Below, piece after piece: positions 6,691-62,129 of a DNA stretch of 64,000 nucleotides. Every line of letters begins with the position of its first letter. The stretch's first letter is position 1. The notes under the pieces are model-generated. The model made no database searches. It saw only the letters and a list, made by a program, of their open reading frames with translations, and was not told the DNA's origin. Source of the stretch: Triatoma infestans (taxonomy: Eukaryota > Arthropoda > Insecta > Hemiptera > Reduviidae); assembly GCA_011037195.1 (NCBI GenBank), contig JAAEAF010000242.1:124001-188000 (forward strand), in the 5' to 3' direction. The position numbers and the translations under genes were made by a program.

Positions 6691-7106
6691 TTCTTCTATC
6701 GTCAGAAAGCTAGTTAATAAAATTGGTGTAGAGACATTAATATCCATTTTTAAGTTTCTAACACTTACTATCTTACTTCTTTTTAAATATTATGTTATAT
6801 ACTCGTACTTTTAATGACATTTAAAATCTCTGAATAAACTTGATAAATCTGACTACAATTAGAAGTTGAAAGGAATTCCAAAAGCGGTCAGAATTAAAAA
6901 AAAAGAATCATGCAATCTCTCAGATAGTGTCCAGATTGCGGAACCAACAACCTACTTTAATAAATATAAACATTGCTTTTTAAATTTCAAGACATATTTG
7001 ATGAAAACTTTTTAAATTCAGTTATCGCGATAAGACTTGAATCTTCCCAAATCAAATAAAAAATTTGAATGTTTTTCTGATTCAAAATATGGCATTCATT
7101 TAATTA
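6691..7106. other. AT-rich intergenic sequence
   Basis: No gene or clear repeat seen. The 13-bp target site of the next element (7094-7106) closes the stretch. Confidence 0.4.
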
Positions 7107-7186
7107 GATGTATCTGTTAGATGGCTGATCGGCCAGGGGGTATCAAAGTAAAACACCAAAAATTTTTGAGTGTTTTTTTATTAATA

Positions 7187-7227
7187 ACCCGACTTTTCGG
7201 CAAACATTGTTTGCTTTCTTCAGGGGC
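7187..7227 (-). ncRNA. Hammerhead ribozyme motif, left arm
   Basis: Minus strand: GCCC, CTGAAGA, extra A, stem II with a mismatch at its base (AGCAAAC/GTTTGCC), GAAA, AG in place of CG, TC, GGGT. Core intact, but stem III is lost. Confidence 0.6.
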
Positions 7228-7388
7228 TATCTTGGAATGGGAAAATTGTGTATGTCTTATCACAACATGTTCAATTATGATTGTGGTTATGAGTGTACTG
7301 ACGAGTGTACAGATGACTGTATGAATGTACTGATGTCATAATTGAACATGTTGTGATAAGACATACAAAATTTTCCCATTCTAAGATA

Positions 7389-7429
7389 GCCTCTGAAGAA
7401 GGCAAACAATGTTTGCCGAAACGTCGGGT
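7389..7429 (+). ncRNA. Hammerhead ribozyme motif, right arm
   Basis: GCCT pairs GGGT (stem I, with two wobbles). Core CTGAAGA (7393-7399), one extra A, stem II GGCAAAC/GTTTGCC with loop AAT, GAAA, CG stem III, TC before the predicted cut at 7425/7426. All core bases are present. The 2-bp stem III suggests it would act as a dimer, as reported for Penelope-like hammerheads. Confidence 0.75.
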
Positions 7430-7551
7430 TATTAATACAAAACATTCACAAATTTTTGGTGTTTTCCTTTGATACCAATCGGTCATCTAACAGATACATC
7501 TGTTCATTTCTAACGGCCAACAATTGCTACAATTTGATATTCATTTAATTA

Positions 7552-8149: not shown

Positions 8150-8225
8150 GGTTATTTCTATCAGGTGGTATCACTGATATCGCAGCACCTGTATCTATTA
8201 AGAAATATTGTTTAGACCGCTTATC
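8150..8225 (-). pseudogene. Retropepsin fragment (protease start)
   Basis: Minus strand reads KQYFLIDTGAAISVIP. DTG is the catalytic triad of retroviral-type aspartic proteases. The second half of the domain is missing or unreadable. Confidence 0.7.
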
Positions 8226-8415
8226 TATAATGAAAAGGCGGCGTTGAGTAGTAGCGGCACCGGTTACCGCCACTTCCGGTCCGCTTCTTAGTTTCCCTGC
8301 GTCTTCTCTGTCCTATCCTGTTCTCTTCCCCAAGCATAAGGTTGTTGCATTCCTTTGTTTTTTCCTTAAATTTGAAATGATAGTAACAGAGCCAGTTTGG
8401 GTTATTGCTTTTTCT

Positions 8416-9093
8416 TTAAATCCTACGAGAACGATGAGTGCTTGCATCTCTACTACGATCACGGTGACATTTGCATTCTCTTAAATCTCTCGTGGCCAGG
8501 GCAGCAATCCGTTCAGTTAACCTCTGAATCTTTTCTTCGAGTCCTCTTTCAGTAGAAACAGCATATATACTATCGGGACGCTCGACCTCATGGATCTTTT
8601 CGGCAACTTCTGCTAATTTAACAACACATGTATGCCCAGTAGAAAGTAGGATTGCCTAAGAAATGATTGGAAGAGAACGAAGCCATAAAGTCTTAGCAAC
8701 ATCCATGGCGATTGTGTCGCCTGCCATCTGTTTCATTTGTCTAAGGAGTTGTGAAGGTTTTTCATTACCTAGTTGTTGGCCCTCTAATAATTATTGAATT
8801 CTTCTGTTCTCAGACTCGGCATAAGTATTTATTAGTCTTATTCTCAAATCTTCATAAGGTGTGTTACTAGGGTGCTTCACAATGTCCGCTACTTGTTGTA
8901 GGACATCGAATTCTAATTGTGGTATTATGGTTTGAAATTTAGTTAAACTATTGGTTATACCACACCTGGTAAAAACTGCATCCAATTGGCAAATCCATAA
9001 TTCCGGGTCCGGTTTCCAAAAAGGTGGTATTTTGGTATTTGTTGAAAAAGCTACAATCTCTTCTTTCTGGTCTTCTTTTTTGTGTACACCCAT
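8416..9093 (-). pseudogene. Gag of the CsRn1-like element, two in-frame stops
   Basis: Begins MGVHKKEDQKEE with the conserved block IPPFWKPDPELWICQLDAVF, followed by a helical capsid-like region. One frame runs the full length with stops after ENRRIQ (about 8788) and after LRSLPIIS (about 8660). It ends in a basic tail (CKCHRDRSRDASTHRSRR). Gag forms the particle that packages element RNA. The usual start of a zinc-knuckle-like block (LCYYHFKF) is read in a shifted frame downstream. Confidence 0.75.
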
Positions 9094-18000: not shown

Positions 18001-21000
18001 TCCTCCCTTAGCCTCACCAATGCAGTATTCCAATTATTTAAGTTCTCATAATTTAAATCAACTATTGCACCATTGTTATTATTAATTTGAAGATCTTTAT
18101 ATCAGTAAATTTTCATTTTAATTATTGGTAGAGCTAATAATTTCGAATATCTATATAAAGGCAGATTTAAAACTTTTAACAAATAGTTGTTGTGTAATTT
18201 AGATGTAAACATTAAAACTGGGGGAATTCGGGTCTCCAAAGTAACAATGTAATTTGGCGTGTTACGCGGCAGCACTAATAGTTTTTTTTGTAAAAAACGT
18301 TAATAACTGTTCTACTTGCTTATATGGCTTTCCTCCCCAAACTTGCGCTCCGTAGCACATGATGGCTCGACTTACCGAGTTAAATATCTCCAATTTTGCA
18401 GACAACGGGACTTTATTGTTAGATAAGAAACACTTCCAAGTTGAATTTATACCTATTTTAGCCTTTGATAACTTTTCATCTAAGTGTTTGTTTAAACTTA
18501 ATTGAGGAGTCAATGTGATCCCAGATATTTATAAGATTTGACGATCAATTTGATTTCCTACCAACTTCCATTTCTCTCTTTTAGAAAATCTTCCTCCATT
18601 CCGAAACACTACAATCTTAGATTTCTGCAAATTAATCAAAAGATTCCACTTATTGCAGTATCTCTATAATGCATTTATATTATATTGTAATTCGTTGGGT
18701 CAGCCGATACTAAGGCTAGATCGTCCGCGAAAGCAATAGTTTTATTTTTACCCCTCCTACATTGATTCCCCGTATAACCAATCTTCTATATCATTTATAA
18801 ACAGGGTAAATAGGAGAAGACTGAGCAAAGCACCCAGCTTAACTCCCATATTAACAGGTAGAGATCTAGAGAATTTATCCAAACAACCGCTTCCGTATTT
18901 TCATGCAAGCTCTGAATGATTCGCACAATTTTCGTCCCATACTATTAAAAAATATTATATTAAAATTAGAAATGACTATAAAAGTTTATGTAATTCTAAG
19001 AAAAAGGAATATTTTGTAAACTTAGCGAATATGTTTCATTCTGTTAGGGACTCGAAAGAATTTTGGAATGTGACGAGAAAATTTGAACTTAATAATTTAA
19101 GTTTTGATTGTGGAATAACCGCACAAGAATGGATCGATTATTTTCGCTCCTTGCTGAATCCTCCCTTAGCGCGAATAGAATATCATATGCGGAACCTTTA
19201 ATTATTAATGACGTTCTTGATGCTCATTTTACTAAATGGGCAATAATGGCTCTTATACAAAAAATGAAACCCAACAAAGCACCTGGGCCTGACAGGTTAC
19301 CCAATGAATTTTTAAAAATCTTCCGGATAGCTTTTTAGATAAATTACAGTATTATTTCAATAAAGCTTATGATATGGGATGTATACCTATGTCGTTCAGA
19401 CATTCAATAATTTTTCCCATTCATAAAAAAGGTTTAAGGAATCAAACGTGTAATTATCGTGGTATTTACTTCGTTGATACAATTGGCAAAATATTCACGG
19501 GACTCCTACTGGTTAGGCTGGGCCGCTGGGATGAGGAAGAGGGCATATTGGGCGAATTCAAAGCAGGATTCAGACAGTCGTATTCTACGGTGGACAATAT
19601 AATCAGCCTGATGAGTATTGTGGAATTGAGATTATGCAAAAAGAGACAAAAGGTGTTCGCGTTTTTTGTTGACCTGAGTACTGCATTCGATAGGGTGGAT
19701 CGTCATGCTCTTTTTTATAAGCTCTGCGGGTTGCGCCTTTCCAGTAAGATGGTGAATGCTCTTAGGGCGTTGTATGATGGGACTGCAGCATCTGTTTGGT
19801 GTGAAGGAGGCCTTACAGACCAATTCGAGACCACTATGGGGGTAAAGCAGGGTTGCTTGTTAAGCCCTCTTATTTTTGCACTTTTCATGAATGATGTTGC
19901 AGATAATTAGAGTGGCGGTATTTGTTTTGAAAATGTACAGTTCAAGGTCCTGGCTTACGCTGACGACTTGCCCATTTTGGCGCCGGATCGACTTGCATTA
20001 CAAATCATGATCAATGATTTTGAAAAGTATTGCAATAAATGGAACCTTGAGCTGAATTTAAACAAATCTAAAGTGCTTATATTTAGAAATGGATTGTTTG
20101 TTACGTATGGTAGAACAAAGATCGGCTCTGTGTTTCGTACCAATTCACCTGGGATAAAATAGTGCGAAAAACACGATTTTTGTCAAGTGATTTAATCTCA
20201 GTGAATTCTTCACTGTGTTGAAATTTTACGTATTTTTATCGGTTAGTTGGCAAGATTTTAAGAAAATTATTTTAATCAAAATTCTATTGAATAATCAGAG
20301 TGTAAGCTTCAGTGATGTGGTGGGGGAAGCAGAATTGTCGATAGTGCAATACCAAAATATTTAATAACTTATGAACTATTGCACCTCAACATAGAACTGT
20401 TTGCTGTCGGTTGGAATATAATAGGGTTTATAACTACGGGCTTATGTTGGTGTGGTGGGAGTGACTGCTGTAGCTGGGTGGCACTGTCTGTGGTGGTGGG
20501 AGATTATCTTCTATCCTTGTTGCACCATTCTCACTATATGCTGGTTAGGCCCACGGAATAAATTTTTGATTATATAAAATTGCAGAACTTTTGTACATTT
20601 AACTGCTGTTTAATAGTTCTACACCTAAATAAGGTAAAACTTCTCTTTTCACAAGATATATATGTTTGTCTATAAGGGATTATTATTTAATGAGTAAAAG
20701 AGTAGCTAGATTGGAGGAGTTTTTCACACCAATAACACATAAAAAAAGCCCTAAAAAGAATATGGTGTAAGAGCTCACCTGAGGAAATAGATTGTGACAA
20801 ACAAAAAGTTAGTAGATTAACTAAACAAGAAGAAATGGAGCTTAATATGGAGAATATAGCTAAGTTGCTTGATTCAAAATTGATGTCATTACCTTCAAAA
20901 GAAGATTTTAAAGCGCTGGAAAGAAAAATAGATGCCTTAACTGTTGAAAACCAAGTTTTAAAAAAAGAAATTTTAGAGATGAAAATCAGAGAAAATAAAC

Positions 21001-24000
21001 TGAATAATACTGTTGAAAATCTAATAAATAAAAGTAAAATCAGAAATCTAATATTTAGAGGTTTGGTAAAGGATAAAAATAAAAATGCAGAAGAAACTAT
21101 TGGAGAAATTTGTCGAAATGTCTTAGGTGTTGAGAATGCAGTAGTAAATAAAGTTTTTGAAATAAGGAGGCAAAAAATGAAGGAGATTATGGTAGCGGTA
21201 TTTAACAAAGAAAAGATAACCAACGATATCTTATCAAAGGCTAGGAAGCTTAAGGGCACCGGCATAGTTGTTCACAGAGATGTATCATCTAGAACAAGAA
21301 GAAAGAAGATATGTTTGTTGCAGGTCAGGAAAAGAATCATGGATATTTGCAGATAATCAAAGCAAGATAAGTCTTAGGGATAGTTTCTTTATGTATCAAG
21401 ACAAAAGATTTGATTGGAGTTTGGAGGAAGGCTTGAAATGTGAAGGTAAAGATGGCATACTAGTTTTTAAGTTTCTAATGGGAAGTAAATTCACAGAAGA
21501 AATGGAGAGAAACATCAGAGCAATTTTGGATTTGGATCAACAATTTGGACGTAATGAGGGGGAGAATATTAAGGCTTCATTGAAATAAGGAAACAACGTC
21601 TGTCGAGGTAATATGATGAGTGACGCGGATCAGTCTAGGGAATATACATATGTATGAAGGTAAAAATAATTATAATAAAAGCAATCATTTTAATTTGTCA
21701 GTTCTATCTTATAATATTGCAGGATTGAAAAATGTAAAAAATAGTAATTTGTTTTTAAATTTTTTAAATAAATTTGATGTTTTTGTATTAATAGAGACTC
21801 ATGTAGAAGATTCTGTAAGTTTATATCTTGAATATTTGTTTAAAACTGTGTGTAAAGTTTAAAGCTCTGTGCAAGTCTGTGTTGTCACACTGTCTGAAAA
21901 ACGCATCTTGAAGATGGGCGAAAGCCCGAAACCGGTCGATGACCACAAAAGAAGCAGGCTACCACGGAAAATGTCTCTGATGCTTTCCAGCTCTGTGGAA
22001 CCAACCACCACAACAATTTGTTAAGAGATTTTAATATTTACTGCAAGCCGGCAGTACGGCATTCAAAGTTCGGCAGGACTATAGGAGGTTTAATTATTGG
22101 CTATAAAAGAGATATATCGGTAGCGAATGTTTGTTCGTTTATTCAAGTGAATAATAATACTATTATTAGAATTAATAAAAATAATAATGAATATATATTG
22201 TTGGTGCCTGTTTATATTAATATCAATTTTTGGAATAATGACTTTGAGGAATTAAATTGTTTATTGAATGAAGTAGTTTGTAAAGATAATTTAATCGTAA
22301 TCGGAGACTGTAATGTCAGAATTGCTGAGGAGCAAATTATTCAGTCGGACCTTTTCTATAGTAATTATAACATTAGCGAGAGACGTCAATCGAAGGATAA
22401 ACAGATAAATAGTAAAGGAAAACAATGGTTGGATTTCTGTGAGGATTACAATTTGGTAGTTCTTAATGGGAGGACAAAAGGGGTCCTGTTGGGTGAATTC
22501 ACCTTTATAGGGCCTATGGGGACCTCAGTGAATGATCTATACTCCGTAAGCTTTTCAATTCTTCCAATAGTACAAGATTTTTTTAGTTCTTCCTGAAAAC
22601 TATTCGGATCATTGCCCTTCTCATTAACTTTAAATTTGTTAAAATCTAATGAAGGTGAAGTCATTAAACTCCCTCTCTTGCCTAAGTTAACCTGGCACAA
22701 TAATAATATAAAATATAGAGAAAAATTAGATAAAGAAGTGGAGAAATGTAACGAGTTAGGGGAAAATCCACAAGATGTTCTTAGTTCGTTAATGAATATC
22801 ATTAAAAATGTAGAAAAGGGGCAGTTAAACCGTATACCGTTAATTAGAAAACAGGAATGGTTTGATTGGGAATGTATTAAAGAGAGGAAAAAAGTATTTA
22901 AATTATTAAATTTATTCAGGAGAACCAACTCTAGAACTGTAAAAAATATCTATTTGGCATCTAATAAAAATTATAAACTAATGTGTATGAATAAAAAAGA
23001 AATGTATTTTAAACAAGTGATTGATAAAATAAGAGAAAGTAGAGATTCAAAACAATGTTGGAATTCCATAAAAACATTTAAAAAACAAAATTTTATCTGT
23101 AATGCCAATTTGAACCTTAATTTTAGAAGCTATTTTGAAAAATTATATCATGTTGTTTTTGAGGTTCCTACTGTGCTTTAGGTTGAACCTTTTGCTCATA
23201 GTTCTATTTTGGATGATGAATTCACTATGGCCGAACTGCAGTCTGTACTAGTTAAAGCAAAGGATGGAAAAGCCCCTGGACTCAATGGAATACCTTACGA
23301 GTTTATAAAAAATGCTTCGGATGGTTTTCTGTTAAAACTGCTTCAGACATTTAATAAAATATATGAGATTGGTGAGGTCCCATCGAATTAAAAGAAGCTT
23401 TGATTTATCCCCTGTACAAAAAGGTGATATCAAACAAGTTGCTAACTACCGGGGTATATCATTTATAGATGTGGAAGTAAAATTATTTTCAGGTTTATTA
23501 TTGAACAGACTTCGGTGTTAGTTGAACAGTAATGAGATAATCAGTGAATTTCAGGCGGGATTTCGAGCAGGTTATGGTACTGCGGATAATATATTTAGTC
23601 TTGTAAATTTAATCGAGGTAAAACTTCAAGTAGATAAAGTGAAAAAAATGTATTTGTTTTTCGTGGATATCAAAGCCGCATTCGACTCCGTACCGAGGAA
23701 ATTGCTGATTTATAAACTATTTAGGCTAGGTTTATCTAATAAATTTGTAATATTGTAAAAAATTTGTATGAGGGTACCAAAGCAGCGGTCTGGGGCTAGG
23801 ACGGAACATCTGAAATTTTTGAAACGTTATCAGGTGTAAAGCAAGGGTGCCTATTATCCCCGACGCTTTTTTCTGTGTTTTTTTGAATGATTTTGGTGAA
23901 GAAATCGTGGTGGGGTCTCTATCGGGAATTTAAAGATTCGTCTTTTAATGTATGCCGACGATATAGTATTAATAGCTGATAAACCGGAAGAAATGCAAAA

Positions 24001-27000
24001 TATGATCAATGAGTTAAGTAATTATTGCAAAACATGGGGATTAAGAGTAAACCTTAAAAAATCAAAAATGATGATCGTTAGGAAGAAAGGGGGAAAACAT
24101 ACTCATGATGAAAAATGGAATTTTGAGGGGCAAAATATTGATATAGTGGATAAATATAATTATTTAGGAGTCTGGCTGACACTATCTCTCTCATTTGAAC
24201 AACAATTTAAAGATAAGTTAAAGACGTCGAAATTTGCACTTAACCTCTACCTGGTCAAAGTTAATCGATAGTCCTAATGTTGATTTTACCTCTAAATTAA
24301 ACATACTTAAAATACTTCAACTTCCAACTAGTAGGTTGCCAAAATTAGTAGCTCGAGAAATTATTTTAAAAGAATTTCGTGGTATGAGGTATAGGAAAAT
24401 ATGTATTTGCAAATGGGAGTCCCACTATTTGATTTCAGTAATTGTAATCAAAAAGTAACTTGGAAAAGTAATCTGGAAGTCTTTCTGAATAAACTGAAAT
24501 TAAAGGAGAGAGAAAATGCAATTGCTAGAGCGAGACAAGGTCAACACCATTTGATATACCCCAAACTTCAGTATAGGATGAGCCATATAAGTATGAAAAA
24601 GTTCGATGAGGCTAAATTAATATTTAAGGCGAGGGCAGAAGCCCTTTATCTGAACTATAATCCTTTCAATCCAGAGGCTAACCATCTTTGTTCATTTTGT
24701 AATTTAAAACAGAAAGAAGTAATACATTTCGTTGGGATTTGTCCGATACTGGCTCCCTACAGGCTCCAATATTTCAATAAAAGAGTATTATTATTTGATG
24801 AAATTTGTAATATTTTAAATGGAGGAAAGTGCAAAAATTTGCGGAAAATTCTTATCTGACGATAACTGGAATAAATATTTAAAGGTAGCCTTGCAGTATC
24901 GAGGAATACTAATTAAAGAATTCAATTATTAATTGTACTTTATTCTCTGGTTCAAGATTTTTTATTGTATGTATTTTGTAAGTAAAAAGTGGCAACACGG
25001 CAGACGGTTTTCTAACCATTGCCTGAAGAGTTTTGTTTATTTTAAATACAAAGGAGACGAAATACTTTTATTTTTATGTATTTTATACATTGTAAATATT
25101 TATGTATACTAGTTTCTTAATAAAACTCTATTATAATAATAATTATTATTATTATTATATATTGAAATGGTGGCCAGCCAAGTTGGAAAAATGGTATTTT
25201 AATAAGCAGAAAATAGGTATTGTGAATTCATACAAATATTTGGGTATCACGGTAACGACAAATCTGTCTTTGGAAAAACATTTTAAAGAAAAGTGCGAAA
25301 ACTCTAAATTTGCTTTGAACGCTTTCAATAAACTAATTTATAATAATAATATCCCTTTTTCCTCTAAAGTGAAAATCTTTAATTCTGTTTCTAGAACTAT
25401 TACCTGCTATAGGGCGTAAATTTGGGGCTCCAAAATGTAGAAGAATGTTAAAATCCCTCTAAAAAATTTTATAAAAAAATGGTTTAATCTGCCTCAGAAT
25501 TCTTCAGATTATTTGTTGTATATAGGAAACAAATTTGACGCCAACTTTTCTGCATGCCTTCAGGTTGCATTATAATTGTATTTGCAAATGCCTTCACTTG
25601 CCCTCGTCTAGATTTCCGCATATTTTTGCAAAACTAATTATAAAAAATAAGCAGTTTTGGTACAAGGATTGGCTAAACTTGTCTAACCTCTATGATATCA
25701 ATTTCTACTCCTTGATAAAGTGTGAACTTAAAGTAGCTGATATTCTAACTAAAATGAAAGACAAATTTACTGAAATGTATAGAGCTAAAGCCCAAAATAG
25801 CTGTAATCATGCATTATATAAACATTTATCTCCAAACCAGAATTATATTTATAGTAGTATGGACGCATGTTCAATTAGATGGATATTCAAACTGACAAAT
25901 ATAGATATGATATTGATATCAAACTCTGCTCTCTCTGTAATAGAGGGGAAGAGGAAGACATTTTCCATTTTATTTGTATCTGTACAATTCTAAAGAGGTT
26001 CATGTTAGATACTTTAACAAAACTGAGCTTAATCTGGAAGAGTTGCTATACAGTCTGAATAAAAATGACTGGCCTAAATTAGTTGGTTCTGCAAAGCTGG
26101 CATGGAAATACAGATACGAGCTGATTTTAGAGTTTAATTATCAATATTGTTTTGTTAATTACAAGCAATTTGTTGTCTCTCTTGCCTTTATTGTAATTTT
26201 ACATATTCTACCAATGTAATTTTACATACTCTCCCTGGTTTGTGATTTCTTTACACGAATTTTTGATTACTTTTATTTCCTTATTTTATACTTCGTATTA
26301 TGTAAAAAAAAAGAAGAAAAGAAGTCTTTTTTTCCATAATTATTAAGTGTTTATTTGTTTAAGTAGGTTTGGTGATATACACTCCTGTGACCACTCGGTA
26401 GACCATTGAGTAAGTCTATTATATTGTATACGACTGTTTGTTGAATTATTGTATACTGTTTTTTTCAATAAAGACATTGAATTGAATTGATTATTTATAA
26501 TTTTAATTAAACTTTTCTCAAATTAAATTAAAACTTTCCTAATTTAAATTAATTTTTTTTTATTATCATATTAAAACTTTTTATTTTTTAAGCTAATTAA
26601 TCTTTTTCAGTCAAAAATAAAAACTATTTTCAATAATAAAAAAAAAAATTCATTCAAGTTAAATTTTTTTATATAAACAAACCCTGCTTCTATTAAGTTG
26701 AACCTATCATCCGAAAGGTTTGTTAGGTGAAAGATACAGAAGGTGCGATCCAGACTTTGTTGAAGGATGAGCTTAAGCTGGATTTCCAGATGATTAGACT
26801 CAGGCGGTGGCGGGCAAGCGTCCGTTGCAAACAGTAGCGGAAAGATTGTTGGTGAGGTCTAGTCCTAAAGATGTAGTAATAAGATGTTGCGAAACGAAAA
26901 AAATTGTCCAACTATGGAGACCGAATCGAATTAATTCATATGTGTCAAAATTTCAGAACCAAGTTTATCACTATATTAAAGATGAGATGATCTAGATCTT

Positions 27001-30000
27001 CTGCCCCCAAACGGGTGAGTGCAGTATTTAATATAATTTTAATAAAATTGTACTTTTTTTCCTGACAGTTATTTGACTTATTGAAAAAAGTGCAGCCAAA
27101 TGCCTTGTCCAAAGTGATTGTTATTGATGGTGATGTTTCTGAAGAATCTCTTGGATTAAAAAGTGAAGATTATAAGGTATTAGAAGAAAATATTTCTGTA
27201 ATTTTTCACGGTGCAGCTAGTGTACGTTTTAATGATCCACTGCATGTTTCTGTAAAGATGAATACCTATGGTACTTTGCAAGTTGTTAATCTTGCATTTA
27301 AAATGAAACAATTAAAGGTAATTAATAAATTATACATTTTATTATTTTCATATATTTTTTAAAAAGGATTTTTATATTCTTAAAAAAAAATTCACAATCG
27401 AACTGAAATCTAAAATGTTAACTCTTATATATAGGTATTACTCGTTTGAAATTGAATTTTACTGTCATATAAGTATGTATAAAGTCTCCTGAATAAGAAA
27501 CTTAGACATGTTCTAAAACCTCTATGACAGCTGAAAGAGAAAATAAAAATAATGGACACAGATAAATCTCCATCTTAATTTTTATTCTTAGATTTAGTTC
27601 AAACGTAACAGATTTTTGAGGATATTATTTTCAGAAAATATTTCTTTTTGAACAATAATTTGTTTGTAACTTTTAAATCAGGCTTTTGTATACATTTCAA
27701 CTGCATATAGCAACTGTCAGATAACAGAAATTGAAGAAAAAATGTATCCATCGACTAGAGATTGGAGAGAAGTAATAAGCGTTGCACAAAATACAGATCC
27801 CATTGTAATGACCATCTTAACTCCAAAGTTAGAAAGTTAATTAATTATTACTTTATTATCTCTTGATGATACGCATATAATTCCATATTCCATATAATTT
27901 AATAAGGTGATTATGTGTTTCAGGTACTTAGGTCGCTTACCAAATACTTATGTATTTAGCAAGTGTTTGGGGGAAAATTTAGTTTGGGAAATGAGAAATG
28001 AGTTACCCATAATTATATTTAGACCTACTATAGGTATTTTTTATTTTGTTTTATAGTCATTAAGCATTAAGTTAAATATAATTCTGTTAAGAAATATCAT
28101 ACATGACTTTCTCATACTGCAATTATGACAACTGCAATTGATTATTCTGCAAACTTGATGGTTTTACCAGTGGAGTTTAGTTGACCTAAAACTAAAAATA
28201 AATAAAGCAACTGTATTTTACTCAATTGTTCGTTTTCATAATCGGTAAAGAGGATATGAGTTTCTGAATTAAACTTTCTCTTCTTTTGGATTAACTGTTT
28301 TAATATAAAGACGCTATGCGCGCAAGAGCGACCTTTGCAGAATATATTCTGCTCTTCAGAGTGAATGCAGCGCACTCTTGAGATTTGTCTAAGCCTCCTA
28401 GGTAATAATTTGAATGTCAAATCCTTAATGTGTAACTTTTTATGTTTTAATATAATTTAAAGGAAGATCTCCATTGTTGTTTACGAATAACTAATAACTC
28501 GGTAGTTGTCACATATCCTTTTTTAAAAATTGGAAGAACTTTAGCAACCTTCCAATCCTTGCGAATTATTCTCCTCAGTCTATTAAAAGTTGAAGAGAGT
28601 TAGTAGTTTGTCTTGAAAATTTCTGAACAATGTTTAAAAACACTTAGATCTTCAGGGCTGATAACACGTCAGTGGTTTGTTGTGAATCGATGTTTCACCA
28701 AACTTACAAAAGGCTTCTTCAGGATAGTGTCGCCTTTAGAGGACAGTATCAACTCTTGTTAAGACAGCGTGTAGGTTGTAATTGTAAACCACACTATCTC
28801 TAAGTGAGGCTTATTATAATATGGGCGTACAACAAACCACTGATGCGGCCCCAACCCAAAAACCTAAGTGTTTTCCATGAATATGGCCGCGGAAATCTGA
28901 AAGATTATAAATGTTTAAAAATTTCTCCATTAATGCCATCCCATCCAAAGGATTTTTTTATCTTTAATAGATTGTTATAAATTGGGTATCGACTGAATTT
29001 TATAAATTATTTACTTTTATTTATAAGATTTTTCTAGAAAAATTATGTTAAAAGAGGATGAGTTGAGGCGTTAGGTTTCCCTCTTCAGTGTAGTGTATGG
29101 TCATACCATCTGCACGTAGTCAAATGAATTAAACATGTAATAAAGATTTAAGTTATAAAGAACGTCACATCTATCCACAGGCAAAAGAAATGCAGTAAGA
29201 GGAGAAGTCGTATGGATTTTCACCCCAGATTTTTTTTCGTACACCTTCTTTTGCTACTCATACATATTTTAAATGAATATCACATCTAGAATTATACAAA
29301 ATAATTTGAATGTTAAATCCTTAATGTGTAACTTTTTATGTTTTAATATCATTTGAAGGAAGATCTCCATTGGTGAAGGCATTTGGCGAAGAAAGAAAGA
29401 TCTTTAGAATAATATGTTTTCAATTGAAAAACGAATGCCTTGCTTCTAATTGCTTCTATTTTTTTAGTGATAGCCAGTTGGATGGAACCTATACGAGGGT
29501 GGATAGACAACTTTCATGGGCCAGTTGGAATGACAATTGGAATTGGTAAAGGTATTATTAGAACAATGTTATCAAATCCTACTGCAAAGGCTGATTTCAC
29601 TCCAGTGGATTCTGCGATAAAAGCTGTTATTGTATGTGGCTGGAAGAGAGCCACCAAGACTCTGTAATTTCAAGAGAATTTATTATTTACTATTTTGTAT
29701 TACTGCATAAATTAATTAGTCTATCCTTGAGGAAAAAATACATGTATATATATATATATATATATATTTTATTTATAGTTGTGAAGAGAAAGAACTTATC
29801 TACAATTGTGCTACCACTCATAAGAATATTACTAATCAAGAACTGATTAAATTGGGATTAGAGATACATGAACAATATCCTACAGAAAATGTTATGTGGT
29901 ATCCTTCAATATCTGTTCATACAAGTACATTCTGGTATAAACTTGAGGCATTCTACAAACATTTTTTACCAGCATTAATTATTGATTCAATATTAAGAAT

Positions 30001-32118
30001 TACGGCCAACAATCCAATGTAAGTAAAAAATTTAAAAAAAATCAACATTTTTAAGAATTCAATTTTTTGTGAAACAGACAGCGTTTTTAGTTGCAAGTAC
30101 ACTCACCCTTTTTAGTTACAAAATCACATGACATTAATTATTAATTAATTTTTCTTCTTCTTCTTAATCTATCCTCATCTACCGCTGTGCGCTGTCGAGG
30201 CTTTACGGAGGTTCTTCCACACATCTCTGACCCTAGCAAAATCCCAATTTCTCGACGTAAATATTTCTTTAACATCCTCTTCCCACGTCCTCCTTGGGCG
30301 ATCTATCTCTACTTCTCTTTTGCTCAGATTTAACTTCCTACACTATTCTGGGAATCATATCCTCTCTCATTCTATTGTGCACAAACCGACAATTCTCGGT
30401 TACATTCGCTGCTGGAACTTCCTGGATTTTTTCTTATTGTGGTATTGCGGATTCTGTGTCTCCGTGTAATCACTTTTTTTTTTACTTGATAACGCATTTC
30501 TATTGCACTTCAATTGCTTCTCAGTTTTGAATTAAGAGTGCCCGACTGTTCCATTTCCCGCCTTATCTAGTATATCATCCGCAAATGCAATGAAAGTAAA
30601 TCCTGTCATTTGGAGGTTCCTGTATCCCACATACACATTCGTTATTTTGGCAAGCAATTTTTCAGGACCAAATCAAGCATAAGAGTAAACAGAAATGTTC
30701 AAGGCTCCCTGCCTGAATCCCCGGGCGAGGATCATAGTTCCTCGTGGTATTAATAGACCTTTTATTTCCGGTTGCAATTCGGTATTTATATATTTATCAT
30801 TTTGCGCCTGCCATATTTGCTACCTCTGCACAGTGGCGAAGGGTTTTACTAGATCAAGAATACACCAAAGGCTATCTCTAACCCTAAAAAGGGTAGGATT
30901 AGCTCGGGGGAAGCGCGCTGGACTAGCAACACGGAAACTCGGGTTCGAATCCAGCCGTGCTACCCTTAGATTTTCCCTCCTACGAGCCTCTACAGCTCAC
31001 TGTCCGCAATGTTGTCTGTAACAAGAGAACACTGTCCGGAGGCTGACAGTGCATTGAGAAGGCTGTGGGAGCAAATGACCGCAGATGGTTGAGAAGCCTT
31101 TAAAAAAAAAAAAATCTGGATTCTTCCAGATGATTTGGAGCCGACCGCTTCCCGTAGTCTCTTCACCTTTTCTAGAAAATTGGGATAGTGATTAAAATTT
31201 CCTTTCTTTCTTTTTTTAATAATAAACAATTCATTTTCTTTCTTTTTTTATAAAATTAATATTTAATTTATTAAATTAAATTCATACAGACTTACAATAA
31301 ATTATAAAATTATTTATTCAATGACTGAGGGCTAGAGAAAGCGTAAAGTCTCTGCTCTATAGAGCCGGCCCCTCTAGAATATATTTTTACAAGAAGGAAA
31401 AAACGAGAAAATCGTCAACAAAAAAAATGAATAACCCTACTATAAAGTCACAATTAATGCACCAATTTTTTTTCAAACATTTAAAAACAGTTTTAATCTT
31501 CTCAGCATTATATAGATAGTAATAGTGTACAGTATTCGAAATAAGACGAGATGGATGCAAAAAGAAGCAGGCTATCTTGGAAGTGTCTCTCATCTCAAAA
31601 GTGCTTCGTCACTTTCATATTGTTTTGGATTATTTTGTTTAATCATACCATTTATTTTCTCCTTTTTTTTTTTTTTTAGAATATTAAAATTACAAATAAA
31701 AATTCATACAGCTATATTGGCTTTAAGTTACTTTCAATTGCGAATTTGGCAATTTCACAATGATAACTTTTTGGGTTTATTGAAAGAAATTCCACCTGGA
31801 GATAAAGAGGCATTTGATTTTGATTTTTCATCATTGGGTCCTAGAGAATATTTTCGAAATAGTGGATTGGAAGGCAGTAAAAAGTATTTATTAAAAGAAA
31901 AAAATGTAGATCAAGATGAAGTTCGTAGGAAATTTCTAATGTAAGTGTCCTCTATAATAATGTTTAATATAATAAACTATTATTAATTATTAGTGATAGT
32001 GTGCTATATTTTTATATTTTTCTCTTACAGAATGAAATATATTCACTATGGATTGTTAACTGCTATACGCTGTGGTCTGCTGTGGGGTTTATACAAGTTG
32101 TACTGCTCTTATCAATAA
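14814..32118 (+). CDS. Fatty acyl-CoA reductase, copy 1 (FAR1), 8 coding exons
   Basis: NADPH-dependent reduction of long-chain acyl-CoA to fatty alcohol, used for wax, cuticular lipid or pheromone synthesis (family knowledge). Exons joined by eye on GT/AG sites and phase: 14814-15008, 27069-27317, 27682-27827, 27924-28033, 29468-29663, 29779-30018, 31680-31940, 32031-32118. They give 1485 nt, 494 residues and no internal stop, close to the usual 500-530. Seen: Rossmann motif TGATGFMG (18-25), HGAASVRF (112-119), YISTAY (152-157) and catalytic YVFSK (206-210). A hydrophobic C-terminus (about 470-490) suggests a membrane anchor, in line with ER or peroxisomal FARs. The 3' half matches the sterile/FAR_C domain. 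An AG acceptor 11 nt before the ATG implies an upstream noncoding exon that I could not place. A paralogue, FAR2, lies downstream in the same orientation. Substrate chain length cannot be told. Confidence 0.93.
15009..16946 (+). other. FAR1 intron 1, part before the LINE stack
   Basis: No gene seen. The sequence aligns with FAR2 intron 1 (56610-58550) with scattered substitutions and small indels. A stretch near 16190-16520 has a partly open frame ([18 protein letters not shown]) that carries a stop in the FAR2 copy, so it is at most a decayed transposon piece. Confidence 0.6.
17318..18934 (-). mobile_element. Inner LINE 2, 5'-truncated, minus strand
   Basis: Inserted in the outer LINE with an 11-bp duplication TCCCATACTAT (17307-17317 and 18935-18945). 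Reading the minus strand it holds the second half of a reverse transcriptase ([20 protein letters not shown] with frameshifts), a linker ending [10 protein letters not shown], and the C-terminal finger [19 protein letters not shown] (about 17735-17795). Its 3' end is AATAAAGAC followed by (ATT)n at 17318-17337. Related to, but clearly different in sequence from, the outer element. Confidence 0.85.
20690..21588 (+). pseudogene. LINE 3 ORF1 (nucleic-acid-binding protein), frameshifted
   Basis: Starts [14 protein letters not shown] at 20690. A one-base frameshift follows near 20770, then a charged coiled-coil stretch (about 20835-21030) and a block starting [10 protein letters not shown] that resembles the RRM part of L1-type ORF1. 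A second frameshift near 21345 moves the C-terminus into another frame ([15 protein letters not shown] to 21588). In LINEs this protein binds the element RNA. Assignment rests on position before an endonuclease/RT ORF and on coiled-coil plus RRM-like order. Confidence 0.7.
21844..22015 (+). mobile_element. Short hammerhead-bearing element inside LINE 3
   Basis: A 172-bp insert that splits the endonuclease frame. It is flanked by an imperfect repeat (ATTTGTTTAA at 21834-21843; ATTTGTTAA at 22016-22024). It matches 43038-43225 over almost all its length, including both outer ends. It contains one hammerhead motif at 21904-21941. Confidence 0.8.
21904..21941 (+). ncRNA. Hammerhead ribozyme motif, core substituted
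   Basis: Stem I is CATC/GATG (21904-21907, 21938-21941). The core reads TTGAAGA in place of CTGANGA. Stem II is GGGC/GCCC closed by a GAAA loop; then GAAA, a palindromic CCGG stem III, and TC before the cleavage point. The C-to-T change at the first core base should abolish or strongly reduce cleavage. It lies in FAR1 intron 1 on the sense strand. Confidence 0.7.
26505..27068 (+). other. FAR1 intron 1, part after the LINE stack
   Basis: No gene. Aligns with FAR2 intron 1 except 26723-26905, which is replaced in FAR2 by a Harbinger remnant. That interval has an open frame on both strands but no recognisable protein. Confidence 0.5.
27069..27317 (+). CDS. FAR1 exon 2
   Basis: Acceptor CAG at 27066-27068, donor GT at 27318, 83 codons in phase 0. 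Begins [10 protein letters not shown] and holds the [10 protein letters not shown] and [10 protein letters not shown] blocks of the reductase core. It differs from the FAR2 exon at one nucleotide (Asn76 to Asp). The first bases of the downstream intron are also identical, so this part diverged recently or was converted. Confidence 0.92.
27682..27827 (+). CDS. FAR1 exon 3
   Basis: Starts [11 protein letters not shown], the conserved serine strand of extended short-chain dehydrogenases. The donor is the GT at 27828, giving TPK joined to YLGRLPNTY as in other FARs. The alternative GT at 27836 would put a stop in the next exon and was rejected. Confidence 0.88.
27924..28033 (+). CDS. FAR1 exon 4 (YxxxK active site)
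   Basis: Reads [20 protein letters not shown] then RPTI. Tyr206 and Lys210 are the catalytic pair. The acceptor AG is at 27922-27923; the exon ends one base into the Val234 codon. No nucleotide difference was seen from the FAR2 exon 4. Confidence 0.9.
28660..28850. repeat. Inverted repeat with degenerate hammerhead motifs (FAR1 intron 4)
   Basis: Left arm (about 28668-28732) and right arm (about 28787-28845) are inverted copies sharing ACAACAAACCACTG and CACTATC. It is present in both FAR genes, so it predates their duplication. In FAR1 the right arm has lost about 12 bases of the hammerhead end that FAR2 keeps at 61259-61270. Confidence 0.6.
28686..28725 (-). ncRNA. Decayed hammerhead motif in left arm
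   Basis: On the minus strand: ATC, CTGAAGA, one extra A, a weak stem II of 3 bp (GCC/GGT) with a long loop, GAAA, CA in place of a CG stem III, TC, GAT. Core bases are kept, but stems II and III look too weak. Confidence 0.45.
29468..29663 (+). CDS. FAR1 exon 5
   Basis: Encodes [20 protein letters not shown], a FAR signature after the active site, then the DFTPVD block (Pro279). Acceptor TTTTTAG before 29468, donor GT at 29664. Confidence 0.9.
29779..30018 (+). CDS. FAR1 exon 6
   Basis: Encodes [18 protein letters not shown] and the start of the FAR_C region, ending LRITANNP. A consensus donor GTAAGT follows at 30019. A (TA)n microsatellite just before the acceptor (about 29742-29768) is longer than in FAR2. 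Confidence 0.9.
30150..30720 (-). mobile_element. Decayed LINE C-terminus (FAR1 intron 6)
   Basis: On the minus strand the left part reads RPRRTWEED, typical of the end of RTE/CR1-like LINE polyproteins. The rest matches 62130-63065 of FAR2, but about 350 bp of RT sequence are missing here. Predates the gene duplication. Confidence 0.6.
30893..31114 (+). mobile_element. tRNA-derived SINE (FAR1 intron 6)
   Basis: The head has a pol III A box (GGATTAGCTCGGGGGAAGCG) and B box (GGGTTCGAATCC). A body follows (CTACAGCTCACTGTCCG, GAACACTGTCCGGAGG), then an A-run tail at 31102-31114. Same family as the copies at 3930, 32880, 44530, 52767 and 63250. Confidence 0.8.
31115..31679 (+). other. Rest of FAR1 intron 6
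   Basis: Noncoding. 31250-31580 matches 63660-64000 closely, which shows the window ends inside FAR2 intron 6. Confidence 0.6.
31680..31940 (+). CDS. FAR1 exon 7 (FAR_C domain)
   Basis: A long T-tract acceptor ends at 31679. The exon encodes [18 protein letters not shown] followed by [12 protein letters not shown] and a charged tail, as in the C-terminal domain of FARs. Donor GTAAGT at 31941. Confidence 0.9.
32031..32118 (+). CDS. FAR1 exon 8 (C-terminal anchor and stop)
   Basis: Acceptor CTCTTACAG ends at 32030. The exon encodes [20 protein letters not shown] then a short tail and TAA at 32116-32118. The hydrophobic stretch is the likely membrane anchor. Confidence 0.88.
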
Positions 32119-33070: not shown

Positions 33071-33898
33071 TATTAATATAACGTAATAAATCTTGTTGTT
33101 CTTATAACTGATCCCTATGAAGTTTAAAAATGTGCAATTTTTGGTGGGATAGTTTTATTTTTTCGAATTTAGTGGTTACAAAATACTATTTATAAAAGTA
33201 TTTGAGTTTTTTTAGAATAATTGGATTGTTACGAATTCACTCTAAAAGGAAGCTCTAAAGGTTAAAATTAAATATTAATTTTTCTTTCTTATGTTCATTG
33301 TTCCCTTATGACTAAACTTATTTGTTCATTTTTTTTTTAAATATATTTTATTTATTTACAAATTAGAATGGGCCAGCTCGCTTAGAGCTTTACACATAGG
33401 CCTAATTGAAAGAAAAAGAACAGAAACAATAAAACCAAGATGAGTCTTCTCAGAGATCTTGGTAGAGTCTGGGTTTAATCTTCTGGATGAAGTAGGCTAG
33501 CCTATGCGGTAATGTGAAGCTGAGGGTACTGTTTGAAGCGATAGGAAAAAATTGTCTGTAGTTAGCCATGTGGTGTTTAGCCATTTTTAATTTTATAAGT
33601 TTAAAATATTAAAATATATTTTATTTTGTTTATTTTTCTTTAGGCGCGTCGAAATGAAATTCTGCTAAGAGCCCTCAAATAAGGTATATAACTAAATAAA
33701 CATGCCACTAAAAATGAATAATTATTTTTTATTTTGACCGGTTACATATTTTATTTACTCATTTTAACATTCACCCTTCTTCAGAATATCTGATAAACAG
33801 TTTGATATCAGGCAAATTTTCATAAGGCAAAATCCATTTACACTATCATTTCTACCTTGATTAAATCCATAATAGTTTATCAAGGCATCTTGAAAATA
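33071..33898. other. Intergenic sequence, possible LINE 3' end
   Basis: 33320-33590 is less AT-rich and ends on the left in a T-run (33330-33345), like the 3' UTR of a minus-strand retroelement. No coding match seen. Confidence 0.35.
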
Positions 33899-34004
33899 TG
33901 AAAACAAGAATTAATTGGCTTCACGACCGATTCAGGGTAAAAAACAATAAACCAAAAAAAATATAACTTTTTTTTTTAAATTGTTTTTTAATAATAATTA
34001 ACAC

Positions 34005-34045
34005 GTTCGACGTTTCGACAAACTTTGTTTGTCTTCTTCAGGAAC
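34005..34045 (-). ncRNA. Hammerhead ribozyme motif, left arm
   Basis: Exact inverted twin of 34244-34284. It would be made from the opposite strand. Core CTGAAGA and GAAA both intact. Confidence 0.78.
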
Positions 34046-34243
34046 AATACAAAACAAAAATAAATAAAGGGTTATAAACATAAAAAATTATAAAATAAAC
34101 CACAAACAAAAAACAAAATACATTGGTGAGATTACAGACTTAACATTTCTACTGTAATCTCACCAATGTATTTTGTTTTTTGTTTGTGGTTTATTTTATA
34201 ATTTTTTATGTTTATAACCCTTTATTTATTTTTGTTTTGTATT

Positions 34244-34284
34244 GTTCCTGAAGAAGACAAACAAAGTTTGTCGAAACGTCGAAC
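34244..34284 (+). ncRNA. Hammerhead ribozyme motif, right arm
   Basis: Stem I GTTC/GAAC (34244-34247, 34281-34284). Core CTGAAGA (34248-34254), one extra A, stem II GACAAAC/GTTTGTC with loop AAA, GAAA (34273-34276), CG stem III, TC, cut predicted after 34280. Every core base fits the hammerhead consensus except the extra A. Confidence 0.8.
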
Positions 34285-34442
34285 GTGTTAATTATTATTA
34301 AAAAACAATTTAAAAAAAAAAGTTATATTTTTTTTGGTTTATTGTTTTTTACCCTGAATCGGTCGTGAAGCCAATTAATTCTTGTTTTCATATTATAACT
34401 AACGGCCAACAAAAAAATCTCCTGATAATCATCTTGAAAATA

Positions 34443-35182
34443 GATGAACACGAACCTTGATTGTTTATTGCAAAAATTACAACGATTATATAATATGCCG
34501 AGAAGGAATGAAAAAATTAGTTCTGTTTTTGAAAACATTTTTTTTATCAATAAGTCTTATTAATAATTTTCAGTATGGTAATTATTAAAATACTTCATAT
34601 TTTAAAGCGCTTATAATAATCTTTAAAAATAAAATCTCTGCTTACACTTTTAATAAAAAATATATACATATTTGTAAAAACTTACTCCTATTGTATTATA
34701 ATGATATCACAAGCATTTTGTCTTTATCATTATAATTCTTATTAATTGTATATTTACATTTTTACAATTCATAATCTTTACAACAATGGCAAAGAGATGT
34801 AAAACTTACCAAAATAAAATAAATACTAAATTACATTTTTTTTAAAGGTTAATGTAACCCTGAAAATAATGAGACATTCTATAAAGAACTTTCAATTATT
34901 ATTAATTATAATCAACTTAAAAAGCAATTAAACAAAACAGTTGCTCATATATACATTGATAGTTGTATTCAAACAAATAATGAAGCAAATAAACTGGCAC
35001 ATTGTTTATTTGGAAAATTGTTTTGATCTATAGTTAATAAAATTTCTTTAATTTAACTATTTTTTGCTCTAAGTAAATATAGGGAGTAAAATAGCAGAAA
35101 TATTATCTTTGAGGAATTTACTGCCTTTCATCTGTCTTCGGTAATCCATTGCCATTTTAAATATTCCATACTAATATTTTTT
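34443..35182. other. Intergenic, 3' of the lipase pseudogene
   Basis: AT-rich, with no gene seen. Confidence 0.4.
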
Positions 35183-37276: not shown

Positions 37277-38775
37277 AGCCTTCTGCATTGATGATTTCAA
37301 TACGTCTTTGTAAGGAACTTTAATGTTCAGAATTTCCCCTTACTAACCTGTAAGATTTCAAGGAGAAGCCTAAGGCTCCCGAGAAGTATACTGAAATGAT
37401 ATATTATTATTCGCACACTCCTAGCCACCGTACCTAGCGCATAGCGCCAAAACCGGTGCCTATGGTCACTTGGCCTTATCTACGAAGTAGATAAGTTACC
37501 GTCCCTGCCACGGGGAGGCGGACCTCTACTTATCCGTCTAGTCCTTCTTATAGTCACTACTTCTTGAGGAAACTCCACAAAGTTCGAAATTCATTGCATT
37601 TTTTATCAGTTCTTTACATTCTCCCGGCAAGTTCTCCCCCCTACTTATCAGCTTGAATTCCATTTGGATTCTAGCCTCGTCGAGGAGAGGACACCGGAAG
37701 AGAACGTGATGCACTGTGTCCCCTTGACCGCATTCACAATCTGGGGAATCTTTCAATCCCAAGTCGAAGAGCTTAGAATTGAACTCCCCTTAACCCGTGA
37801 AATATTGTGTAACGGTCTGGGATAGCCGCAGCCATCGCATCGACAGTCTGTGATGCAGATTCGGAAAGAACTCATAAGTGGTTCTTCCTGTCACTCCCTC
37901 ATCCCAGCGTCTTTGCCACTTCCCTATCTCATACTCTAGGATCGTTTTTTTTACGAGAGCAGGAGGCATCTGACTAGACAACTCCCGACCATCAAGGACG
38001 ATCGTGCCCCTTTTTTGGTGCTTATATCTTAGGGCCCTCATCTCTGCTTGGAGATCGAGCGGCAACACTCCAGCGGCCAACGGTAAGAAGACCGTGGATG
38101 ATGTCGCATAGGTTCTAGTCACCGAGCATAAAATAGCTCTTTGCATTCTTAGTAGAATGCCGCTGTACGACTGCATGTCCAGCTTGTCAGCCCAACAGGC
38201 AGCTGCGTACGTTGCGACATTCTCTATCACGCCCTTGTAGATGGTCAGAGCCACACCAGTCTTCAGCCCCCACTCTGGTATAAGTTGATCCCTTGGTATA
38301 AGTTGAGACATCTTGCGGCAACTCGCTGAATATGGGGCTTAAAAGAAAGCTTCCAATCCAGGAGCACGCCCAGATACTCAAACTGGGTTACGTGGGCTAT
38401 TCTTTGTTCGTCCACCCAGATCCAAGGTGGGCGACTGGGATGAAGCTTGCCTTTCATGAGCATCACTTTTGATTTCTCAAACGAAATCTGCAGCTTTTCC
38501 CCTTGACACCATCTTTTTATTTGGGACACAGCCGTGCTAGCCCTCTCCTCTATCTCTCTACGAGAATCTCCATGGACAACTATTGCTAGGTCGTCAGCGT
38601 ATGCAACCGAATCATAGTAATCCAATTTATCAGTTTGTTTGTATATATAGCCTTCTGCATTGATGATTTCAATACGTCTTTGTAAGGAACTTTAATGTTC
38701 AGAATTTCCCCTTACTAACCTGTAAGATTTCAAGGAGAAGCCTAAGGCTCCTGAGAAGTATACTGAAATGATATA
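37277..38775 (-). mobile_element. R1/LOA-like LINE with 127-bp flanking direct repeats
   Basis: The insert 37404-38648 is a 5'-truncated LINE on the minus strand. It begins just before the catalytic box (VAYADDLAIVVHG), then WCQGEKLQISFEKSKVML, EYLGVLLDWKLSFKPHI, a long helical region and the finger CECGQGDTVHHVLFRCP. It is flanked by direct repeats 37277-37403 and 38649-38775, 127 bp each with one mismatch seen. The coding part is richer in GC than its surroundings and has few lesions: a short tandem duplication near 38280-38310 shifts the frame, and there is a stop near 37790. Confidence 0.85.
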
Positions 38776-43037: not shown

Positions 43038-43225
43038 TCAGAGTTTATAAACATTAGTGTGTAAACTAACTTTGCTCTATGCGAGTCTGTGTTGTCACAC
43101 TGTCTGAAAAACGCATCCTGAAGATGGGCGAACGCCCGAAACCGGTCGATGACCACAAAATGAAGCAGGCTACCACGGAAAATGTCTCTGATACTTTCCA
43201 GCTCTGCGGAACCAACCACCACAAC
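43038..43225 (+). mobile_element. Short hammerhead-bearing element, 188 bp
   Basis: Flanked by an exact 14-bp duplication AACTATTTCCTTTA (43024-43037, 43226-43239). No inverted arms. It contains one hammerhead (43114-43151) and ends ACCAACCACCACAACA. Its match inside LINE 3 (21844-22015) shares both ends. Retroposition is inferred from the long duplication. Confidence 0.83.
43114..43151 (+). ncRNA. Hammerhead ribozyme motif, intact core (best in window)
   Basis: Stem I CATC/GATG (43114-43117, 43148-43151). Core CTGAAGA (43118-43124), one extra T, stem II GGGC/GCCC closed by GAAC, GAAA (43138-43141), palindromic CCGG stem III (43142-43145), TC, predicted cut after 43147. The self-complementary stem III is what a dimeric hammerhead would use. 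Confidence 0.82.
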
Positions 43226-43239
43226 AACTATTTCCTTTA

Positions 43240-61999: not shown

Positions 62000-62129
62000 G
62001 TGAGTAAAAAAAAAAAAAAATCAAAATTTTTAAGAATCCAATTTTTTGTGAAACAGACACCGTATTTAGTTACAAGTACACTCACCTTTTTTCAGTTACA
62101 AAATCACATGAGATTAATTATTAAGTAAT

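Follow-up and report, generated by a model that had tools for sequence, protein, structure and literature searches.

The window analyzed here, i.e., the whole 64,000-nucleotide stretch of Triatoma infestans DNA, contains a palindromic insertion of 531 bp (33899-34429) that we attribute, with a probability of roughly three in four, to a Penelope-like element (PLE) that inserted by target-primed reverse transcription from both cut ends of its target, after which the two cDNAs would have been joined head to head. The comparisons on which this reading draws concern the boundaries of the insertion and its empty site, the two alternative ends (sites A and B) at which the copies terminate, the variable joins between arms, the arms that mix subfamilies, and the coding relatives in the same genome, each of which is seen in the sequences themselves.

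The insertion consists of two 239-bp inverted arms separated by a 14-nt center, with a tail of 39 bp on one side only (Table 1). The initial annotation had called the palindrome near perfect; the arms are in fact identical at 239 of 239 bases, and chance is a negligible source of a perfect repeat of this length. In the empty-site search, the two flanks were joined with one copy of the target site duplication (TSD) and queried against the 941-Mb genome, where they matched contig C472 (43494-43719) at 90% identity. That alignment, which shows 9 mismatches and two gaps (12 and 3 nt), holds a single CATCTTGAAAATA and lacks the element. Because an empty relative of the site thus carries one TSD copy and no insert, we consider the element and its boundaries real, which also confirms the one-sided 39-bp tail, the exact 13-bp TSD, and the element limits as first annotated. 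No open frame of at least 110 aa was present within 33899-34429, in line with the earlier description of a coding-free element, and a comparison of PLE protein pieces with the entire window (E value of 1e-4) gave no match. The window copy is a derivative insertion and, as an element, incomplete.

Table 1. Features of the two hammerhead-bearing palindromes in the window (positions are those of the window)
Feature	Position	Strand	Basis or remark
Family A, left TSD (CATCTTGAAAATA)	33886..33898		Exact repeat of 34430-34442; one copy in the empty site (L096)
Family A, left arm (inverted pseudo-LTR, untailed), begins at site B	33899..34137	-	239/239 reverse complement of 34152-34390
Family A, minimal hammerhead core, left arm	34009..34041	-	CTGAAGA-A-7/3/7 stem II-GAAACGTC; predicted fold
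Family A, putative RNA 5' end for the right-arm template (+1, the A of TTTC/ATTACAG)	34131	+	Suggested by sequence
Family A, center, 14 nt	34138..34151		Head-to-head join via the 7-nt inverted pair ATTACAG/CTGTAAT
Family A, right arm (pseudo-LTR in sense orientation)	34152..34390	+	Reverse complement of the left arm
Family A, minimal hammerhead core, right arm	34248..34280	+	Core motif and predicted fold; predicted cleavage after 34280
Family A, one-sided tail, 39 nt, between reverse transcription start sites B and A	34391..34429	+	CTAACGGCCAACAA, also in the second palindrome
Family A, right TSD	34430..34442		13/13 identical to the left TSD; single copy in the empty site
Family B, left TSD (ATTCATTTAATTA)	7094..7106		Repeats at 7539-7551
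Family B, second hammerhead palindrome, 432 bp	7107..7538		Many genome copies
Family B, left-arm hammerhead, damaged core	~7191-7223	-	Core motif search
Family B, minimal hammerhead, right arm	7393..7425	+	Core motif; fold z of -3.63
Family B, one-sided tail, 37 bp	7502..7538	+	Tail motif
Family B, right TSD	7539..7551		13-bp repeat of the left TSD

Judged by its relatives, the family to which this copy belongs (family A) is a PLE, with the arm representing its pseudo-LTR (pLTR). A genome search yielded 1081 candidates, 40 of which were scored, and these comprised compact palindromes as well as longer copies. The left-arm sequence is that of the pLTR adjoining an open reading frame (ORF) for reverse transcriptase (RT) and GIY-YIG endonuclease in loci L031 and L038. 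In L038 (contig C13304), an inverted pLTR is followed by a partial 3' piece, a pLTR with tail, the ORF (approximately 6398 to 8892, split over three overlapping frames), and another pLTR with tail, and a 13-bp TSD surrounds the entire 4286 bp; in a coding relative, the open frame starts 8 nt past the tail. A 466-aa piece of the L031 ORF matched the Pfam family RVT_1 (E value of 1.3e-9), and this ORF had 116 homologues, many of which carry an RT domain and some of which carry PF01541; the named ones are mostly from arthropods. The Pfam GIY-YIG model (PF01541) gave no match to the L031 ORF itself at an E value of ≤10. We base the assignment of a GIY-YIG domain on the C-terminal region, which aligns with the homologues that carry PF01541; YVDD and the GIY-YIG pattern are both visible in the homologue alignment, with conserved Y, C, C, Y, G, and H residues. 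Related PLEs with both domains, which the initial annotation had expected to exist in this genome, were found, and what lies between the inverted and direct pLTRs of L038 is a PLE ORF and not the DNA transposase that it had named as the contrary case; the features that it had listed as Penelope-type, i.e., an inverted pLTR pair, a one-sided tail, and hammerheads, are all present. The pLTR-tail junction had 567 genome matches at ≤2 mismatches (control, 0), some of them internal, upstream of an ORF (L038 and L058).

To describe the ends of these copies, we counted from +1, the A of TTTC/ATTACAG at the pLTR start, which puts site B at approximately +260 and site A at +298. Ends were counted in 51 loci showing two opposed pieces and a left outer end. 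The right outer end fell at +287 to +298 in every one of these two-ended loci (51/51), and the left, untailed end fell at +259 to +272, i.e., at site B, 39 nt from A, in 47 of them. In L013, the left end reads as +108 through a neighboring match, the element itself ending at B with a 15-nt TSD; L050 has a truncated left arm and an untailed end at +169; L071 has an exact 13-nt TSD and an untailed end at +173; and L058 has a left end at +298, with an opposing tail that runs into an ORF and the other end of the insertion out of view. Most loci were found through the tail or through the center of a tailed copy, and a tail query fixes the right end. A search with center patterns that excluded the tail gave 20 centers (control, 0); all 20 of these palindromes are tailed on one side, and a second tail is absent from all 19 loci that were fetched, C4387 being known only from the list of tail matches.

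In family A, 31 of 40 copies had a TSD score of at least 12, a count whose narrower limits missed the TSD of L013, versus 0 of 386 cross-copy pairings of flanks. TSD length is not fixed, at mostly 12 to 15 nt and up to 19 nt with a mismatch. The longer head-to-head copies (L037, L034, L032, and L035; 394 to 2273 bp) terminate in the same way and carry TSDs of 12 to 14 nt, and no TSD was found in the three copies that lack an inverted piece (L056, L059, and L068). L012 and L024, which are separated by 7 kb and carry a common TSD, probably represent one event that is counted twice in the sets of 27, 40, and 51 copies.

A second palindrome in the window defines another family (family B), whose arms are unrelated to those of family A except for the hammerhead and the exact tail motif CTAACGGCCAACAA. 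A genome search gave 2457 candidates, of which 40 were scored; near-full-length matches on both strands were present in 31 of the 40 scored contigs, and the tail was one-sided in 30 of these 31, with C12180 ambiguous. Flanking repeats of 11 to 14 nt were seen in 13 of 14 copies, three of them with a mismatch, in a count made without a control. The centers, compared by eye, differ in all 15 aligned copies. No coding source of family B was found in the five stretches that were searched.

The joins between the arms turned out to be variable in family A as well. Of 29 centers, 24 could be placed (C514 and C4387 gave partial readings, a fuller version of the C514 center being available in L060). 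In 21 of these 24, one arm extends to a point within -3 to +3, and its partner mostly ends somewhere from +10 to +34; 16 different junction combinations occur overall. The junction (-2,+15) recurs in five copies. Another five, the window copy included, carry the mirror pair (+1,+22)/(+22,+1), formed via the 7-nt ATTACAG/CTGTAAT; the window junction (22,1) with its 7-nt microhomology is common to L022 and L046 and is mirrored in L002 and L011. The other 19 placed joins show ≤3 nt of homology or contain filler.

A less selected sample was made up of the first 20 stretches not yet examined among the exact tail-junction matches. Thirteen of them had two ends, the left one at B; in three more (L051, L063, and L070), also two-ended, the second end lay beyond the sequence that was fetched; three were one-ended (L056, L059, and L068); and one was an internal tail (L058). 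The one-ended stretches are pLTR insertions starting at +5, -20, and -25, respectively. The inner ends of the two arms in this sample are independent of each other (+252/+2, +150/-4, +232/-2, and -94/-200), and 12 of 15 joins (that of L069 was left out) contain filler of 1 to 38 nt, several stretches of which look arm-derived by eye; overlaps instead of filler were seen in L070 (approximately 3 nt), L067 (≤8 nt, with mismatches), and L053 (approximately 21 nt, an A/T run). Joins of this kind resemble polymerase-theta-type joining. Thirteen of the 15 are unique within the sample, L052 and L066 being the same. Since joins are mostly unique, we regard the palindrome as mainly the outcome of the way in which the enzyme inserts.

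Family A divides into subfamilies at five marker sites; these subfamilies are also seen in longer and ORF-bearing copies, and by these markers the two arms of a copy do not always belong together. Among 38 copies (26 compact, L050 excluded; 4 long; and 8 from the sample), six have arms that are discordant at two or more of the five markers (L006, L008, L045, L032, L037, and L062). L050, with its truncated left arm, was kept outside this count and inside the concordance, join, TSD, and end counts. All four arm differences of L006 are marker sites; L045 is old, with 12 arm differences, and is the weaker case. Over family A as a whole, the number of discordant marker states was 27, versus a mean of 58 after re-pairing of arms (minimum of 36 in 2000). 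Family-B arms differ by a mean of 6.7% within a copy versus 12.8 to 13.1% between copies, and their differences comprise 124 mirrored and 161 one-arm changes, where re-paired arms gave a mirrored mean of 48 and a maximum of 95 (500 re-pairings). An arm tree placed the arms of a copy as sisters in 3 of 27 family-A copies, for which there are too few differences, and in 6 of 15 family-B copies, a mixed result. These comparisons suggest that the templates of the two arms were in most cases close relatives and in some cases plainly distinct; subsequent conversion from arm to arm might have contributed.

Not all centers are unique, and the recurrent ones bear on the proposal of the initial annotation that the palindrome is a nonautonomous family moving as a unit by means of PLE enzymes supplied in trans. 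In the center with the 38-nt filler, a 32-nt pattern is found, exact, at nine places, all nine with a TSD of their own, and the filler is oriented one way relative to the tail in five copies and the other way in four. Because filler this long is unlikely to recur by chance, we take these palindromes to descend from one another, and because their TSDs differ, they are unlikely to be segmental duplications; the tail side would seem to have been decided anew at each of these insertions. Shared centers also link C514 with C4387 (a common pattern) and L005 with L006 (the junction (-1,+15) plus a letter found in one arm only). One member of the filler lineage, L071 (C3965:12950-13720), has an untailed arm that starts at +173, perhaps a third start point. 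Movement as a unit therefore accounts for a minority of copies and fails for the majority, in which the joins differ, as do all 15 aligned joins of family B; the mirrored changes of family-B arms would likewise be unexpected if inherited arms had simply drifted apart. A model in which palindromes move only as units was weighed after the filler center had been found, and we now retain it as a minority route while considering it an unlikely explanation for the palindromes at large.

A different route to a palindrome is self-priming, in which one PLE cDNA, or one antisense RNA, forms a foldback at a small hairpin near the pLTR start and serves as its own template, as proposed for inverted pLTRs at palindromes in Adineta vaga in the part of that paper dealing with them (Arkhipova et al., 2013, PMC3846280). 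Such a hairpin (ATTACAG-14 nt-CTGTAAT) does exist at the junction, five of the 24 placed joins fit it exactly (L001, L022, L046, L002, and L011), and the arms are mostly concordant. A copied arm should, however, keep the end of its template, yet 47 of 51 loci pair an A end with a B end, and the second tail of the only two-tailed locus, L058, runs into an ORF; moreover, arms of two subfamilies are combined in L006, L008, L037, and L062, arms are of unequal extent, and both the 19 low-homology or filler joins and the 12 filler joins of the sample are at odds with priming at a hairpin. Because of the one-sided tails, unequal arms, low-homology joins, and mixed arms, we disfavor self-priming as a general route and rate it as quite improbable. 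Inverted arms with a TSD might also suggest a foldback or MITE-type DNA transposon, an assignment that we rejected given the one-sided tail and the coding relatives with RT and GIY-YIG: several copies have unequal arms, the TSD varies in length (mostly 12 to 15 nt), and in L038 the inverted and direct pLTRs flank a PLE ORF with RT, all of which makes this origin extremely improbable. The same holds for an inverted chimera arising in sequencing or assembly. Perfect palindromes are a recognized class of artefact, but such an artefact should mirror the flanks, and here the mirror symmetry stops 4 bases into the TSD; the tail on one side, the empty site, and the many copies with TSDs of their own leave this explanation with next to no weight.

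Two-ended priming, the reading that we prefer, would proceed as follows. The PLE enzyme would cut both target strands with a stagger of approximately 13 to 15 nt, and both 3' ends would prime reverse transcription, with two RNA templates used per event. One cDNA would start at site A, leaving the tail, and the second would be initiated 39 nt deeper in the RNA, at site B; both would run through the hammerhead toward the RNA 5' end, probably at TTTC/ATTACAG. The cDNA 3' ends would then be joined head to head by microhomology or by short, often arm-like filler, and gap filling would yield the inverted arms, the one-sided tail, and the target duplication. As both start sites are located just ahead of the ORF, a pLTR-only insertion could be templated by an ordinary PLE mRNA. 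Some palindromes would later act as templates themselves, as the recurrent centers suggest, and an RNA starting beyond the center would carry that center over to the new copy.

Several observations weigh against two-ended priming or limit it. The arms are mostly concordant (27 versus 58), which would mean that templates are mostly of one subfamily; recurrent centers fit unit inheritance at least in part; the untailed ends of L071 (+173) and L050 (+169) indicate that B is not obligatory; and 3 of the 20 sampled stretches are one-ended, with no TSD found. In addition, the model gives no account of the rule that one side ends at A and the other at B. What makes the family informative is that readable joins, one-sided tails, and mixed arms are available in many copies, which allows two-ended priming and self-priming to be separated by sequence.

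Both arms of the window copy carry an intact hammerhead core, one on each strand (Table 1), as had been noted at the outset. In family A, the core letters of each arm read CTGAAGA-A-GACAAAC-AAA-GTTTGTC-GAAAC-GTC, and the minimum-energy fold forms stems I and II of a type I hammerhead, leaves the core strands open, and is without stem III. There appears to be no space for stem III, in that the ACGU of GAA-ACGU-C could pair only with a second molecule. Given its composition, the family-A hammerhead folds with an unremarkable energy (z of -0.35; 62 of 200 shuffles did equally well), and the family-B plus-strand hammerhead far outperforms its shuffles (z of -3.63). Among the arms tested, the core is intact in 66 of 72 from family A and in 14 of 30 from family B, and pair 2 of stem II varies within family B (A-T, G-T, and G-C). 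The initial annotation had counted the lack of a hammerhead covariance hit among the outcomes that would speak against it, and taken literally this is what we obtained, as the Rfam hammerhead families gave no match in 33700-34650 at an E value of ≤1 and none across the window at gathering scores. We take those models to expect stem III. The Rfam matches that did occur in 33700-34650 belonged mostly to microRNA families, all below gathering scores, and reflect the hairpin. PLE hammerheads without stem III are described in the section of PMC7761336 that covers them. We consider each arm to contain a minimal hammerhead of the dimer type, which would be predicted to self-cleave as a dimer. An arrangement of opposed hammerheads had been thought odd for self-cleavage; the opposed copies are indeed present, but the oddity is better seen as a by-product, each hammerhead belonging to the RNA of its own arm.

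Palindromes joined at the hammerhead cut site, queried as exact 11-nt arms, had 0 matches in 941 Mb, and for that reason we do not see cleaved RNA as the template for both arms. We speculate that the dimer-forming hammerhead may hold two template RNAs together; this guess agrees with the requirement of such a hammerhead for a second molecule and with the lack of palindromes whose arms meet at the cut site. Taken further, insertion might be a symmetric two-template reaction, carried out by an enzyme dimer on two hammerhead-held RNAs, each primed from a different side of a staggered cut and at one of two set start sites, with the palindromes as its footprints and as self-symmetrizing, ORF-less parasites, an extension that we put forward tentatively and consider doubtful. 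If it is true, palindromes renew their symmetry at each jump, so that one without an ORF can persist as a parasite, and the pairing of two templates would be a possible task for the dimer-type hammerhead.

Other repeats in the window deserve mention. The stretches 43074-43227 and 21864-22016 (both plus strand) are fragments, 95% alike, of a further hammerhead-bearing repeat, in which CTGAAGATGGGCGAACGCCCGAAACCGGTC at 43118 has a palindromic ACCGGU in place of stem III and is followed by an AC-rich stretch resembling a PLE tail. The sequence ATTACGGCCAACAA, two mismatches away from the PLE tail motif, occurs at 29999-30012 and 61980-61993, that is, once in each member of a duplicated pair (29326-30547 and 61311-62519); no hammerhead core of the GAAACGTC type was listed beside it. 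A large share of the window is made up of direct duplications that have diverged, each up to 3 kb long, at approximately 85 to 96% identity, including the pairs 26902-28871/59345-61314, 13900-16946/55468-58536, and 9972-11834/48839-50698. Frames in 17571-25993, 37790-38691, and 53302-55235 resemble decayed RT and RNase H of other, non-LTR retrotransposons.

Inverted pLTRs, one-sided tails, and minimal PLE hammerheads are already in print, whereas the compact form and the mechanistic evidence presented here appear new. Minimal hammerheads of the dimer type have reportedly been described for PLEs, in 2014 by Cervera and de la Pena and in 2017 by Lunse and coworkers; the ones found here are like them in having the CUGANGA/GAAA core and a palindromic ACGU and in being without stem III, and unlike them in being present as two mutually inverted copies, which are unable to pair within one transcript. 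In L1 twin priming, two cDNAs primed at both ends of one target break give rise to an inversion, an occasional outcome that involves one RNA; the event proposed here would be frequent and would use two defined start sites. Excerpts of PMC7761336 have the type I hammerheads of PLEs lacking helix III, residing in pLTRs, and being thought dimeric, and in the same text retrozymes are proposed to be moved by PLE enzymes. With metazoan retrozymes, as characterized in the relevant part of PMC7229834, the palindromes share small size, the lack of coding capacity, and the presence of hammerheads; retrozymes, however, are tandem repeats with type I hammerheads, and we did not assign the palindromes to them given the head-to-head arms, the TSD and one-sided tail, and the absence of stem III. 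The Anolis PLE enzyme PAc, according to the passages cited, cuts and extends both strands in vitro and initiates at a pair of adjacent internal positions bounding the tail (Frangieh et al., 2024, PMC11167929). The main-text section of that paper does not describe a joined two-strand product, and second-strand synthesis and later PLE steps are left unvalidated by that in vitro study. Within the portions of the literature searched, we found no description of ORF-less palindromic PLE copies or of the two-template reading. With the EN+ PLEs (Penelope/Poseidon; PAc of Anolis and Pen of Adineta vaga), family A shares RT and GIY-YIG in its full copies and, going by the pertinent parts of PMC3846280 and PMC11167929, direct and inverted pLTRs, a one-sided tail of 30 to 40 bp, and a short TSD, as well as a palindrome near the inverted junction. 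In those elements, as far as these texts describe them, the space between the pLTRs is occupied by an ORF or by captured DNA, either from the host or unrelated, and the RT start sites of PAc are 111 to 118 nt inside the ORF; in the compact form seen in the window, by contrast, nothing lies between the arms, and the start sites of the family are upstream of the ORF.
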